30,364 nucleotides of DNA from a virus. The stretch lies in IMG/VR virus record IMGVR_UViG_3300023184_000381, positions 1 through 30,364 of that record; one strand, 5' to 3'. How positions within the stretch are numbered: the stretch's first letter is position 1; each line of letters begins with the position of its first letter. Shown in pieces: positions 7,166 to 30,364 of the stretch. The position numbers and the translations under genes were made by a program. Below the pieces are notes generated by a model. That model did no database searches. It had not been told where the DNA came from and was given only the letters and a program-made list of their open reading frames with translations.

Positions 7166-8332
7166 ATGAGTATTTCGATTACACAAACACCAACATCGGC
7201 ATCATTAGCACAATCTCCAATAGTATTTTCAGTATTAGAAAGTAATACATTGGTAATTGGCTCATCTTCATTTCAATATGTAGCAGATTTATATTATTGG
7301 ACAGGAAGTGTTTTTCAAAGTGGCAGTGTAGATTACACATTAGTAAAATATCCTAATACTTCAAACACAGGTATCTTTGAGATATCACAAATAATGAACT
7401 CTGTTTTAAGAGATTTAGCACAAGCAAATCCTTCTAATGTTTATTACTTTGCGTGTGATTTCTATTTTCAATATTTAAATGGAACTACGTTTGTAACAGG
7501 TTCTCATACTAAATCAAATGTTTATTCTGCATTAGATGGATATGGAATATTTCCAGAAACCATTTCACAACCAATTTATAATAAAACTCCATATTGGCCT
7601 ATAATGACCGATGGACCTGCAACACAATCTGTATTTACAAATAATTACGGAAGTGGCAGTGTATTTGTTGGAGTAACCGGAGCAACTAGACCGTCTTCAA
7701 TAATTTATAGTGGCAGTAATGGTAGTAATGGTATATATTTTGTATCTCAATCATCTAACTCATCAGCCTCAGTAGCACACTTTCCACAATATCCTTCACA
7801 AGTAGGATTTCCTATATCACAAGTAGGATTAACTTATTATACAATTCAAGCTCAAGGAGGTGCATCAGTTTTAAACACACCAATCCGTTTTGAATTAGAT
7901 TGTGTACAAAAATATCCAAACGTAAGAATTAAATGGAAAAATAGATTTGGACAATTTGATTTCTTTAATTTTTATATGGTTAACAGACAATCATTTACTA
8001 CAATGAGAAAAACTTACCAACCACAATTAGGTAGTTGGCAATCAACTGGATTATCATACAATAGTTATGATTCACAAACTCTAAATTATATTGTAGATTC
8101 TAAGCAAGGATTGCAAGTTAATTCATTTTGGATATCTGAATCATACAACGATATATTAAAAGAATTATTAGTAAGTGATGAAATATATTGGGTTACTACG
8201 GAATCAACAGATGAATGTAAACCATTAACAATATCTACATCTAATGTAGTATTTAAAACAGGTGTTGTAGATAAATTAATTCAATACCAATTTGATTTCA
8301 ACTTCGGACAAAACTATAAATTAATATTATAA
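7166..8332 (+). CDS. Tail tip / baseplate structural protein
   Basis: This 388-residue protein is rich in Ser, Thr, Tyr and Asn. Residues about 240-300 contain a pattern common in tail-tip proteins of Bacteroidetes phages (NVRIKWKNRFGQFDFFNFYM, then 'RQSFTTMRKTY'). The C-terminus (VDKLIQYQFDFNFGQNYKLI) is a strand-rich closing segment. The N-terminal third looks like an Ig-like or fibronectin-like sandwich. No signal peptide, membrane segment or enzyme motif is visible. It begins the baseplate unit and precedes a larger hub-like protein by three bases. It probably forms part of the distal tail ring or an associated receptor-binding structure. Confidence 0.6.
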   Translation: MSISITQTPTSASLAQSPIVFSVLESNTLVIGSSSFQYVADLYYWTGSVFQSGSVDYTLVKYPNTSNTGIFEISQIMNSVLRDLAQANPSNVYYFACDFYFQYLNGTTFVTGSHTKSNVYSALDGYGIFPETISQPIYNKTPYWPIMTDGPATQSVFTNNYGSGSVFVGVTGATRPSSIIYSGSNGSNGIYFVSQSSNSSASVAHFPQYPSQVGFPISQVGLTYYTIQAQGGASVLNTPIRFELDCVQKYPNVRIKWKNRFGQFDFFNFYMVNRQSFTTMRKTYQPQLGSWQSTGLSYNSYDSQTLNYIVDSKQGLQVNSFWISESYNDILKELLVSDEIYWVTTESTDECKPLTISTSNVVFKTGVVDKLIQYQFDFNFGQNYKLIL

Positions 8333-13013: not shown

Positions 13014-13985
13014 ATGAATCTTCGTTTTGTAAGTGCACAACCTGCAACTGAATACTATGTTTGGCAAGTAGAAGTAATGCTAAACAATTTTACTAAAGTA
13101 GGAATTAATTTAAACAATGTAGATATTGTTTGTTGGAAACAAAATGGTGTAATACCAGATAGTTGGTCTAAATTAGCAAATAATTATCCTGCTCGTTTTT
13201 TCTTTTATGATGATGAAAGAAAAACTAAACATTACATATCATCAATCCGTCCTAATATCTTAAAACAACATTGGAAACAATATCCTGAATTAAAAGATGA
13301 AGCAATCTTTTATCATGATTGTGATATTGCTTTTACTAAACCTATCGATTGGAATCAGTTTCTAAATGATGATAAATGGTATGGTAGTGATACAAGATGG
13401 TATATAGGACATGATTATATTATCGGTAAGGGAGAAGATGTTCTTAGTGAAATGTGTAAGATAGTTGACATAGATAAAGATTTAGTTAAACAAAATGAAC
13501 TAAACTCTATTGGTGCACAATACATAATGAAAGGAATAGATTATCAGTTTTGGGATAATGTAGAAAAAGATTCAGAAAATTTATTTAGAGAAATTAATTT
13601 ATTAAGTAATAAAAAGAAATTGATAGAACCTTCTTATCACGAGTTACAAATATGGTGTGCAGATATGTGGGCAGTATTATGGAACGGATGGAAATTAGGT
13701 AAAGAAACAATTTGTCATCCTGCATTAGAATTTAGTTGGGGAACATCAACCGAAGATGATTGGAATAGATTAAATATATTTCATAACGCCGGTGTAACAG
13801 GTGAAGGACAAGGATTATTTTATAAAGCAATTTATATGAATAGATATCCTTACAATGATAATATTATTGTTAATGAAGGAACAGCAAGTTGGCATTATTG
13901 GCAATTAATTAAAGAAGTAGCACAAAAATCAGTATTAATAGAAGAAATAATAATTCCTGTAAGGGGAATATACATTGGAGATTAA
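13014..13985 (+). CDS. Putative glycosyltransferase (GT-A-like)
   Basis: This 323-residue cytosolic protein has no signal peptide or membrane segment. The stretch AIFYHDCDIAFTKPIDW holds a DxD-type motif (D102-C103-D104) after a hydrophobic strand. That is the metal/nucleotide-sugar site of GT-A glycosyltransferases. Downstream, 'SDTRWYIGHDY' and 'IGAQYIMKGIDYQFWDNVE' match the acceptor half of such enzymes. The last third is rich in Trp. It is joined to a methyltransferase-like gene with no intergenic base and a second glycosyltransferase-like gene. The set could glycosylate virion proteins or host surface glycans. Substrate and sugar are unknown. Confidence 0.6.
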   Translation: MNLRFVSAQPATEYYVWQVEVMLNNFTKVGINLNNVDIVCWKQNGVIPDSWSKLANNYPARFFFYDDERKTKHYISSIRPNILKQHWKQYPELKDEAIFYHDCDIAFTKPIDWNQFLNDDKWYGSDTRWYIGHDYIIGKGEDVLSEMCKIVDIDKDLVKQNELNSIGAQYIMKGIDYQFWDNVEKDSENLFREINLLSNKKKLIEPSYHELQIWCADMWAVLWNGWKLGKETICHPALEFSWGTSTEDDWNRLNIFHNAGVTGEGQGLFYKAIYMNRYPYNDNIIVNEGTASWHYWQLIKEVAQKSVLIEEIIIPVRGIYIGD

Positions 13986-22041: not shown

Positions 22042-22059
22042 AAAATAAATCTTAAATAA

Positions 22060-22091
22060 TTTGTTGGTTTGAACTTTCTTTCTTATATTTA
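22060..22091 (+). promoter_or_regulatory. Bacteroidetes-type promoter before the structured RNA locus
   Basis: TTTG (22060-22063), a 20-base spacer and TATATTTA (22084-22091) match TTTG-N19-21-TAnnTTTG with one mismatch in the last base. No plausible gene follows for 370 bases, so it would produce a noncoding transcript through the tandem repeats at 22107-22205. Confidence 0.6.
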
Positions 22092-22106
22092 ATAATATGG
22101 TAGTAG

Positions 22107-22205
22107 ACTACTGGGGCAACTGACGGCTGATACATTACACCGAATGAAATAGTTTGGGGGGACACAGGGGGGCTGACAACTGAAAACATTTCCCAAATGA
22201 AAGAC
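22107..22205 (+). repeat. Two imperfect 53-bp direct repeats, G-rich, in gene-free DNA
   Basis: Two units repeat the order G run (4 or 6), CTGAC, NN, CTGA, CATT, then ATGAAA: unit 1 at about 22113-22149 and unit 2 at about 22167-22202, both spaced 53 bases apart. The G runs (GGGG, GGGGGG, GGGGGG) are exceptional in this AT-rich genome and could form a G-quadruplex. No reading frame longer than 8 codons is present. It may be part of a structured RNA, an iteron-type origin or a packaging site. Confidence 0.6.
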
Positions 22206-22253
22206 TAAAGCAGACAGCAGCTAAAGAAAGTAAATAAAAAAATAAATTAAAGT

Positions 22254-22264
22254 TTGTTATTAAT
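22254..22264 (+). promoter_or_regulatory. Late promoter-like motif TTGTTATTAAT (site 7) before an RNA gene
   Basis: This exact copy is followed by no gene start but by three hairpins and a terminator, so if it is a promoter its product is a short noncoding RNA. Confidence 0.65.
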
Positions 22265-22365
22265 CAGTCAGTTCTTTATTGCCATTTAGGCTGACTCCTT
22301 AGTAAATTATGTAGAGGCAAAATAATACTCTACCAACCCTCATCAGTTCTCGGTGAGGGTTTTTT
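22265..22365 (+). ncRNA. Candidate phage small RNA with three hairpins
   Basis: About 100 bases downstream of the promoter-like motif contain three stems in a row. Stem 1 is AGTCAG (22266-22271) with CTGACT (22291-22296), loop 19. Stem 2 is GTAGAG (22311-22316) with CTCTAC (22328-22333), loop 11. Stem 3 is the terminator at 22335-22365. No start codon with a convincing frame is present. The combination of promoter, ordered stems and terminator is the typical layout of a small regulatory RNA. CTGAC in the upstream repeats is complementary to GTCAG of stem 1, so the two parts could interact. Confidence 0.6.
22335..22365 (+). terminator. Strong terminator of the RNA candidate
   Basis: AACCCTCATC (22335-22344) pairs with GGTGAGGGTT (22352-22361), one T-G wobble, loop of 7 bases, followed by TTTT. 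A 10-bp stem with GC core is the strongest hairpin in the early region. Confidence 0.9.
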
Positions 22366-22395
22366 AATGTCTATAAAAAATAATACTAATAATAT

Positions 22396-22426
22396 TTTGA
22401 AAATTAAAAAAAATGATATATATTAG
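22396..22426 (+). promoter_or_regulatory. Bacteroidetes-type promoter for the HNH gene and early cluster
   Basis: TTTG (22396-22399), a 19-base spacer and TATATTAG (22419-22426) match TTTG-N19-21-TAnnTTTG with one mismatch. The ATG at 22461 follows after 34 bases. It would drive the tightly packed small genes 22461-24856, including the sigma factor. Confidence 0.6.
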
Positions 22427-22460
22427 TAGTAATACAATTTATTAAGAAAAAACAAACATT

Positions 22461-22973
22461 ATGGCGATGTCAAACACACACAATTTACCACAAGATTATT
22501 TAAAGAAATTATTTACCTATGATTCAGTAGAAGGTCATCTTATATGGGCATTGAATAAACCTAGAGGTAAAAAATTAAAGGGAAAGAGATTTGGATTTGA
22601 AGAACCGGGTGGCAGACGAAAGGGGATGATTAATAGTAAGAATTATAGAGAAAGTAATTTAATATGGATGTATCATTATGGAGATATACAAAACGGAATG
22701 TATATAGACCATATGGATAGAAATCCTTCTAATAATAGATTAGATAATTTAAGATTAGCAACACCTAAACAAAATGCTGGAAATAGAGAACAAAACATTA
22801 ATTCTCCACATAAATACAAAGGAGTATATAAATCAGGCAAAGCAAGTTGGAGAATGATGTGTGCTGATAAATATTATGGTGTATATAAAACAGAAGTAGA
22901 AGCTGCTATTAAATACAATGAAATAGCAATACAAAGATGGGGTGAATTTGCAAATCTTAACATTATAAAATAA
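22461..22973 (+). CDS. HNH endonuclease with C-terminal AP2-like domain
   Basis: This is a 170-residue, two-domain protein. The HNH motif is in 'YIDHMDRNPSNNRLDNLRLA' (D83-H84 as metal/general base site, N residues about 10 later). Residues about 115-168 ('KYKGVYKSGKASWRMM', then 'YGVYKTEVEAAIKYNE') match an AP2-type DNA-binding fold that often follows HNH in phage homing nucleases. A second ATG two codons later could also be used. It may be a mobile homing nuclease, or a host-DNA nuclease or packaging helper. It stands alone behind its own promoter, as free-standing homing endonucleases often do. Confidence 0.8.
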   Translation: MAMSNTHNLPQDYLKKLFTYDSVEGHLIWALNKPRGKKLKGKRFGFEEPGGRRKGMINSKNYRESNLIWMYHYGDIQNGMYIDHMDRNPSNNRLDNLRLATPKQNAGNREQNINSPHKYKGVYKSGKASWRMMCADKYYGVYKTEVEAAIKYNEIAIQRWGEFANLNIIK

Positions 22974-22979
22974 AGAATT

Positions 22980-23162
22980 ATGTGTATATTTCGTTTTGGA
23001 ACATGGTTAGAAGGATTATTAAATGTAATCAGTTTAGGTCACTCTAAACAAATAGCGGGATGGATAGCTAATAAATTAGGCTATTCAGATTGTGGATGTG
23101 ATAGGAGACGTGATTTTTTAGATAAACTATTTAAGTGTGATAATAGAATAAAATTATTCTAA
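22980..23162 (+). CDS. Small Cys-containing phage protein (DCGC-RRR motif)
   Basis: This 60-residue protein has an amphipathic N-terminal half ('LEGLLNVISLGHSKQIAGWI') and a 'SDCGCDRRRDFLDKLF' segment. The CGC followed by basic residues and 'xxLNxLF'-like end occurs in short hypothetical proteins of Bacteroidetes phages as I remember them. The function is unknown, but zinc binding is possible with the third Cys near the end. It starts 6 bases after the HNH gene and its stop overlaps the next ATG by one base (TAATG). Confidence 0.55.
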   Translation: MCIFRFGTWLEGLLNVISLGHSKQIAGWIANKLGYSDCGCDRRRDFLDKLFKCDNRIKLF

Positions 23163-23820: not shown

Positions 23821-24051
23821 ATGAGTGATAACAAATACGAACCATTAAGTGAAATCGAGTTTATAGAATTAAATAGAGTCTTAAATGAGATAGGAGCATA
23901 CCTACCAGATAACCAAATGAGTTATATATGGAGTAACTTTAATAGAGTAAGGAATGCAACTGAAAATCAACCTTGTGGATGTGCATCAGCCGGCGGTCAT
24001 TGGAAAAGAGCGGTAGAGCATTTGAAACAATGGGTAAAAGAGAGAACATAA
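23821..24051 (+). CDS. Small protein with CGC-x-GGHWKRA motif, 76 residues
   Basis: The N-terminal half is helical and acidic ('SEIEFIELNRVLNEIGAY'); the C-terminal part has 'QPCGCASAGGHWKRAVEHLK', which could bind a metal with the two Cys and His. It starts one base after the previous stop and its stop overlaps the sigma-factor ATG (TAATG), so the two are translationally coupled. Coupling to the sigma factor hints at a partner or control role. The function is otherwise unknown. Confidence 0.55.
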   Translation: MSDNKYEPLSEIEFIELNRVLNEIGAYLPDNQMSYIWSNFNRVRNATENQPCGCASAGGHWKRAVEHLKQWVKERT

Positions 24052-24605
24052 TGTTTGATTCAGGAAGTATGCAAGAAAACACAGAACGATTAGGTATATT
24101 ATATACTAAACATCATCAATGGTTATTAGGAACAGCTTATAACATTTCAAAAAAGCAAGAATTCGCAGAAGATTTAGTCGGTGAATTATATTGTTACTTA
24201 GGAGAAAAAGTAAATCCTAAACTATGGGCTAAAGATTCATTCAACATTCTATATTGTATTCAGTTTATTCAAAGTAGATTTATTAACAAAGTAAAGAGAG
24301 ATGCGAGAATACAATACAAAGGTATAATAACTGAGGAGTATAAGGATAATGAATACGATATAGAATATGATGAAAGATTAGAAAAATGTTATGATGAAGT
24401 ACTAAGAGAAATACAATCAGTAGAAAAGACAGGTATGTGGGTAAGTGCAAAATTGTATAAGATGTATTGGATAGACGAACCAGATGAAACGTTAGAAGGT
24501 ATAAGTAAAAAGATTGGTATAAGTAATAGTACAGCCTTCTTACATATTAAAAAGATGAAAGGACATTTAAAAGATAAATTAAAAAATCCATTTGATAATG
24601 AATAA
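24051..24605 (+). CDS. Sigma-70-family RNA polymerase sigma factor (phage)
   Basis: This is a 184-residue protein. Region 2 is visible at about 14-75 ('LYTKHHQWLLGTAYNISK', then 'EFAEDLVGELYCYL'), the core-binding and -10-recognition helices, with the AEDLVxE pattern of ECF-type sigmas. Region 4 is at about 148-178 ('LEGISKKIGISNSTAFLHIK'), a helix-turn-helix. It is probably the activator of late transcription and would read the TTGTTATTAAT motif present before late units. The upstream in-frame region (from 23973) is shared with 23821-24051; the ATG at 24051 overlaps that gene's stop, so I chose it. No anti-sigma gene is recognised. Confidence 0.8.
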   Translation: MFDSGSMQENTERLGILYTKHHQWLLGTAYNISKKQEFAEDLVGELYCYLGEKVNPKLWAKDSFNILYCIQFIQSRFINKVKRDARIQYKGIITEEYKDNEYDIEYDERLEKCYDEVLREIQSVEKTGMWVSAKLYKMYWIDEPDETLEGISKKIGISNSTAFLHIKKMKGHLKDKLKNPFDNE

Positions 24606-24901: not shown

Positions 24902-25219
24902 ATGGCGAAGTTTGAACAAGGAAATAAGATAGGTAAAGGTAGACCAAAAGGTAAACCAAATAAAACAACTGCAGAGATAAAAGATATTATTACTCGTATT
25001 GTTGGTAATCAGTTAGAACATATAGAAGCTGATTTAGAAAAGATAAGAAAGAATGACCCTGCAGAAGCAATGAGGTTATCATCTAAGTTTATAGATTATG
25101 TTATACCAAAACAAACTAAGATAGATTTAGAAGGTGAGTTAAGACATAAGGTAGATAAATTAGTTATTGAGATTAAAACAAACAATGGCAAGAACAGCGA
25201 CGATAGAAACAACGATTAG
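24902..25219 (+). CDS. terS: Terminase small subunit
   Basis: This 105-residue protein starts with a Gly/Lys-rich arm ('KFEQGNKIGKGRPKGKPNKT', i.e. the GN-x-x-GKGRPKGxPNKTT pattern of Bacteroidetes phage small terminases) and continues as helices. It ends with a polar Asn/Asp tail. It would recognise packaging initiation sites and feed DNA to the large subunit. Its 3' end overlaps the large-subunit gene by 35 bases, which supports co-translation and the call. It is shorter than many small terminases (about 130-180 residues). Confidence 0.7.
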   Translation: MAKFEQGNKIGKGRPKGKPNKTTAEIKDIITRIVGNQLEHIEADLEKIRKNDPAEAMRLSSKFIDYVIPKQTKIDLEGELRHKVDKLVIEIKTNNGKNSDDRNND

Positions 25220-30123: not shown

Positions 30124-30300
30124 ATGAATGAAGATACCGCGATATTAGAAATAATGTTAGAGTTATGTGAAGATGAAAATGAGGATTTGAAGCATGAAAA
30201 TGAATACTTACTCGCATTGACAAGGTATTTGGAATATAAAAACAAAGAATTATATAATGAGTATTATAACTTATTAGACACAAATAAAAGATTAAATTAA
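30124..30300 (+). CDS. Small acidic protein spanning the contig junction
   Basis: This 58-residue, Glu/Asn/Leu-rich protein starts MNEDTAILEIMLELCEDENE and is predicted to be one helix with coiled-coil potential. It follows the fiber gene by 3 bases and is cut by the 126-bp terminal overlap, so its end appears again at 1-62. A fiber-assembly chaperone or attachment helper is possible from position, but no motif supports this. Confidence 0.6.
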   Translation: MNEDTAILEIMLELCEDENEDLKHENEYLLALTRYLEYKNKELYNEYYNLLDTNKRLN

Positions 30301-30364
30301 CCCAAAAATAACAAAAAATAAAAATCAAATTGTTATTAATAGTAAATCAATTATAATATGAACG
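30239..30364. repeat. Terminal direct repeat, right copy
   Basis: These 126 bases are identical to 1-126. See the left copy for interpretation. Removing one copy gives a circle of 30,238 bases in which the small gene 30124-30300 is followed by a promoter-like motif and then the scaffold gene at 120. Confidence 0.95.
30330..30340 (+). promoter_or_regulatory. Duplicate of late promoter-like motif site 1
   Basis: This is the same site as 92-102, repeated by the terminal overlap. It should be counted once in any motif tally. Confidence 0.6.

Follow-up and report, generated by a model that had tools for sequence, protein, structure and literature searches.

The gap between genes at positions 22042–22460 of the window, by which we mean the whole 30,364-nucleotide stretch of viral DNA analysed here (IMG/VR record IMGVR_UViG_3300023184_000381), is predicted by sequence comparison to encode in its 3′ half (about 22266–22365) a conserved structured RNA that was previously uncatalogued. 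The complementarity of an exposed loop of this RNA to the start codon of the adjoining first gene in many relatives suggests a viral RNA switch. The RNA belongs to an apparently undescribed family in uncultured phages, whose host group has been little studied for small RNAs and for the control of phage genes. Its seed, loop against start codon, is simple to test, and it comes with a late promoter motif specific to the phage and with a sigma factor candidate.

The source virus is uncultured and its hosts are probably Bacteroidetes bacteria. A perfect 126-base direct terminal repeat (positions 1–126 and 30239–30364) indicates that the window probably represents an entire phage genome that closes into a circle at about 30.24 kb. 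DNA comparison found no near phage isolate, and terL was at 37% to Flavobacterium phages. Searching with the 60-aa protein encoded at 22980 (p60) identified no credible host genome, and the exact RNA pattern had no match in bacterial genomes. As the original prediction had it, the gap at 22042–22460 appears to hold no gene: stops occur throughout all three forward frames and no ORF of at least 50 aa lies in 22098–22440. The gap ends at an HNH endonuclease gene (22461–22973, plus strand; HNH_3 in Pfam, phrog_99; start ATGGCGATG), the proposed target of the RNA, whose 170-aa product has HNH_3 as its sole Pfam match. The adjacent operon usually runs from an endonuclease gene through small genes to a sigma gene. 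Its first gene is usually an endonuclease of a family that differs among relatives, HNH in the window and, by our reading, GIY-YIG-like in L001, L003, and L008. Positions 22461–22973 and the equivalent place in relatives form a hot spot, where endonuclease genes of differing families are flanked by the RNA on one side and by the small gene at 22980 on the other. A promoter had also been proposed ahead of the HNH gene and was not confirmed: sigma-70-style sites in the region, the one ahead of that gene included, are at chance level (5 found versus 5.1 expected) in a scan that did not cover Bacteroidetes promoters.

The predicted small RNA is about 100 nt long (22266–22365, plus strand, the 5′ end being deduced rather than mapped) and was delineated by covariance matches and compensatory changes. 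It had been described as three stem-loops followed by a strong terminator. The terminator stood: the terminator scan and covariation place it at 22335–22365, as a hairpin (22335–22361) followed by a T-run, with 1 found versus 0.2 expected. Instead of three stem-loops, folding and compensatory changes resolve two, in addition to the terminator hairpin. Hairpin P1 (22266–22296, AGTCAG/CTGACT) presents GCCATT in its loop at 22281–22286, and hairpin P2 (22311–22333, GTAGAG/CTCTAC) has a loop with AAATAATA. The stretch comprising P1, P2, and the terminator (about 22257–22365) folds with a z of −5.1 relative to shuffles; the entire 273-nt segment folds no better than chance (z −0.9).

We gathered relatives by scanning IMG/VR with TerL and the 60-aa protein as guides. 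A covariance model built from five sequences gave 126.9 bits for the window and 49.9 bits for L003. A 16-sequence model retrieved 18 loci at E < 1e-9, some contigs being entered under two locus ids, and its weaker matches were loci already picked by the loop motif (e.g., L053, L095, L096, L048, and L059). L173 (76.6 bits) and L178 (67 bits) were added by a later set fetched via the sigma gene. Judged by strong covariance matches, about 20 related phage contigs in IMG/VR carry the RNA, none in more than one copy. In 14 distinct sequences, whose alignment was fitted to the structure and so leans towards it, 97.4% of the cells pair; shuffles give 79%, and sliding gives no more than 52%. Two-sided changes affect 13 of 22 pairs, a level reached in 0 of 500 shuffles. 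The comparison of relatives recovered conserved stems with the compensatory changes that had been proposed as a check. RNAalifold returned nearly the same structure from the same alignment, with 12 two-sided pairs. The P1 loop GCCAUU is invariant among the 14 aligned sequences and the P2 loop AAUAAUA nearly so; the position of the GCCAU motif varies, in that it occurs in different hairpins in different relatives. The expectation that no described RNA family would fit holds as far as Rfam is concerned: Rfam 15 has no match in the window at the gathering threshold, and the best sub-threshold score is 20 bits versus 60.

By sequence and comparison, the predicted RNA has its own promoter motif in addition to its intrinsic terminator. 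The late promoter-like motif claimed at 22254 proved to be an 11-mer, TTGTTATTAAT (22254–22264, plus strand), found at 7 sites in the window versus 0.25 expected, all on the plus strand and mostly just upstream of late genes; one of the 7 duplicates another via the 126-base terminal repeat. We call the motif “late” on the strength of the genes that follow it (capsid, tail, and terminase region) and not from timing. A looser form, TTGTTATTNAT, is also present ahead of the gene at 13014 and of a small terminase candidate at 24902. This form occurs phage-wide, always on the plus strand and mostly just before genes (window positions 92, 2851, 12976, 15359, 17163, 24858, and 27349). Relatives have their own TTGTTA versions at the same late genes: TTGTTATCTAT in the genome of L003, TTGTTAAATA in those of L018, L024, and L008, and TTGTTAATAT in that of L020. 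The core recurs at the RNA 5′ end in those relatives, with one base changed in L008. As for the extension 3′ of the core, the window has the late-gene form itself, L003, L020, and L008 come close to it, and L018, L022, and L024 diverge from it. This pattern suggests that the RNA starts at the virus’s own late-type promoter, and the motif and the compensated stems support the predicted late noncoding RNA. Because start codons lie 13 nt after TTG in several genes, transcription may start about 12 nt after TTG, which would place the RNA 5′ end at the first base of P1. In many relatives, the late core coincides in part with a sigma-A type promoter (TTG-N19/20-TATATTTG), which is degraded in the window.

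A candidate reader of the late motif is a sigma-factor-like protein encoded at 24051–24605 on the plus strand, 1.7 kb downstream of the motif and the RNA. Its predicted structure (mean pLDDT 77.6) has sigma factors, mostly of the ECF type, as the top PDB matches for both domains (region 2 and region 4). The top Foldseek rows are also sigma factors, at E values of 1.5e-3 and weaker. Single-domain matches to sigma factors are at 2.3–2.8 Å with a Z of about 9, close to what helical bundles can attain by chance, and sequence profiles for sigma factors scored below curated cut-offs for this protein. The protein is the probable reader of the TTGTTA late motif. A sigma-like protein with region 2 and region 4 folds is conserved in the same operon, adjoining the small terminase gene.

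We compared the hairpin loop with the starts of neighboring genes. In most relatives, the next operon opens with a gene whose start codon is matched by 6–11 nt of complementarity in the loop that presents GCCAU(U). GUGCCAU loops pair off with AUGGCAC starts in L003, L020, L008, L051, L027, L030, L025, and L089, where the third codon varies and begins with C, and UUGCCAU loops pair off with AUGGCAA starts in L095, L075, L080, and L059. AUGGCAC is a rare start (6 out of 499). With ancestry uncorrected, the match of the flanking bases has a p of 6e-5 across 21 lineages and 0.036 when these are collapsed to 10. For a separately fetched set, in which the downstream starts were hand-picked after the loops had been seen and ancestry is again uncorrected, 8 of 10 first genes are in the top two of all gene starts in their own contig (p 1.5e-4), with up to 11 contiguous pairs (L201) and 9 in L176. 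In the window, the loop matches the HNH start weakly, by 5 contiguous Watson-Crick pairs (7 when one G-U is allowed); this start is second of 37 by duplex energy and mid-rank by contiguous Watson-Crick pairs. Loop and start match poorly in L018, L042, L049, L048, L071, L190, and L197, several relatives have 5 pairs or fewer, and an energy permutation of loop/start pairs over 22 lineages gave a p of 0.14. In L003 (about 7312–7326) and L020 (about 1120–1135), a four-codon frame, ATGGCACAATTATGA, overlaps the endonuclease start and bears AUGGCAC, complementary to the loop. Start-codon pairing is the best-supported mechanism, though no more than moderately supported.

The mechanism that we propose, to which we give somewhat less than an even chance, is a late small RNA of about 100 nt that arises from a phage-specific late-type promoter, has its own terminator, and blocks translation of the adjacent operon through its loop. 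The sigma-like protein (24051–24605) would read the promoter, and transcription from the late motif would end at the RNA’s own terminator. The GCCAU(U) loop would then pair with the AUGGC start region of the operon’s first gene and block translation of that gene, damping the operon when late transcription begins. Blocking by a loop is plausible because flavobacterial mRNAs have no Shine-Dalgarno sequence and initiation on them needs an unstructured start region (PMC6847099). A further step, which we regard as doubtful, would make this a feedback switch: the sigma factor would turn on an RNA that blocks the first gene of the sigma factor’s own operon, with loop and start co-evolving as endonuclease genes replace each other.

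The RNA could also be read as a cis-acting leader: late transcription would start here, readthrough of the terminator would control the endonuclease/sigma operon, and within one transcript the loop could reach over to the start codon downstream. The RNA is co-directional with the operon and directly upstream of it in most relatives, and in L048 and its kin, the next ORF begins about 25 nt past the terminator T-run with no promoter-like box between. However, many relatives do have such a box between the terminator and the next gene, and in L030, L025, and L089, whose model matches are weak, the RNA lies on the strand opposite to the operon and the start is still matched. These opposite-strand cases favor action in trans, and we consider a leader unlikely. 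Action in trans could mainly concern other targets, either host mRNAs or several phage genes with AUGGC starts together. Such starts occur often in these genomes, several contigs contain other genes that equal or surpass the endonuclease gene in pairing, and GCCAU is kept where the next gene has no match, but the variable loop bases are tracked by the next gene in many lineages, and we think this reading quite unlikely.

That the loops bind a protein would fit their invariant motifs and the synteny with the terminase module, where a packaging or structural RNA might be expected; the pRNA of phi29 is such an RNA. This would not explain why variable loop bases match start codons, and it sits poorly with the occurrence of GCCAU in different hairpins in different relatives, and we judge it improbable. 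Expression is so far predicted from sequence, and the locus might instead be a small coding gene or a regulatory element that acts as DNA. Both are opposed by the compensatory changes seen in P1, P2, and the terminator. A frame comparison made in search of a coding gene adds to this: the longest sense frame starting in the window’s RNA is 7 codons, and no frame is common to all relatives. We regard the absence of an RNA gene as very improbable, and the noncoding character that had been predicted is upheld.

We compared the proposed start-codon switch with known systems. HEARO/OMEGA RNAs are structured RNAs adjoining an HNH gene, as is the RNA of the window, which differs in having no Rfam match and a neighbor that may belong to another endonuclease family in relatives. 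A HEARO/OMEGA guide RNA was rejected for the lack of an Rfam gathering-score match and because the 170-aa neighbor has HNH_3 only, not an IscB-like RuvC plus HNH arrangement. The resemblance of GUGCCA/AAUAAUAC to the 16S 530 loop was set aside, as the stems differ. The lambda late leader (6S RNA, tR′) and the HK022 put RNAs are structured leader RNAs that likewise place a short structured RNA behind a promoter, with a terminator, at the border of late genes; the opposite-strand relatives set the present RNA apart from them. P22 sar, lambda OOP, and lambda PreS are phage antisense or regulatory RNAs that act on mRNAs, and base pairing by sar blocks translation initiation (PMC12197685). They share with the window RNA that they are small phage RNAs acting on mRNAs, here by the proposed blocking of a start codon. 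Compared by description only, sar and OOP come from the strand opposite their targets and share long complementarity with them, and PreS is Hfq-dependent, whereas the window RNA does not lie antisense to the target proposed for it and would rely on a 6–11 nt loop. Rfp18 of Flavobacterium psychrophilum is a flavobacterial sRNA with one stem-loop predicted for its targets (PMC9723704), but it is chromosomal; this comparison, too, is by description.

Upstream of the RNA lie two G-run repeats, which the original prediction had joined with the hairpins into one RNA design. By comparison of relatives, the repeats are a separate conserved element. They were not found in L001, L003, L017, L020, and L038, and an endonuclease-like ORF follows the element in L022 and L042, parting it from the RNA. 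The suggested pairing of GTCAG in stem 1 with CTGAC in the repeats also fails, given that the repeats of L023 and L042 read CTGC or CGGC and stem 1 has no matching change. Since no terminator was found between the element and the RNA in the window, transcription from 22098 could also yield a longer RNA, of about 268 nt.

The element is conserved in 7 contigs, along with a promoter-like box and a small 5′ hairpin. Where a Bacteroidetes-type promoter had been predicted, at 22060–22091 (plus strand), there is a promoter-like TTTG...TATATTTA box, the sole match to TTTG-N14-24-TATATTTA in the window, and its last base departs from the sigma-A −7 consensus TAHHTTTG (PMC6847099). Similar boxes precede the element in six relatives. 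Window folding places the hairpin at 22099–22112 with a UAGA tetraloop; by eye, relatives have GAAA or UAAA loops on differing stem sequences. In viral contigs, 7 stretches fit the G-run pattern, and on inspection those in L104, L106, L109, and L110 seem unrelated. A coding reading of the element was rejected, as the 42-codon frame seen over it by eye in L023 and L024 is interrupted in the window and matches no PHROG. Guide-like use of the repeat cores was also rejected, with few 11–13 nt matches elsewhere in their own contigs and none in L022, L023, L027, and L042.

The two imperfect repeats that had been noted are confirmed and lie at 22113–22149 and 22167–22202 (plus strand); their best alignment score is equalled by 3–5 of 1000 shuffles, and they share the core CTGAC..CTGA.ACATT. 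Twin repeats whose cores are alike within a genome and different between genomes occur in the window (22113–22202), L008 (1728–1880), L022 (3750–3890), L027 (370–520), and L042 (3230–3328). The core common to both repeats within each genome is CTGAC, CTGC, CGGC, TTCAA, AGCTG, or TGTAAG, and the genomes’ own pairing is the best of 720. Because the cores match within genomes and differ between them, we infer that the repeats may be twin binding sites for a fast-changing partner.
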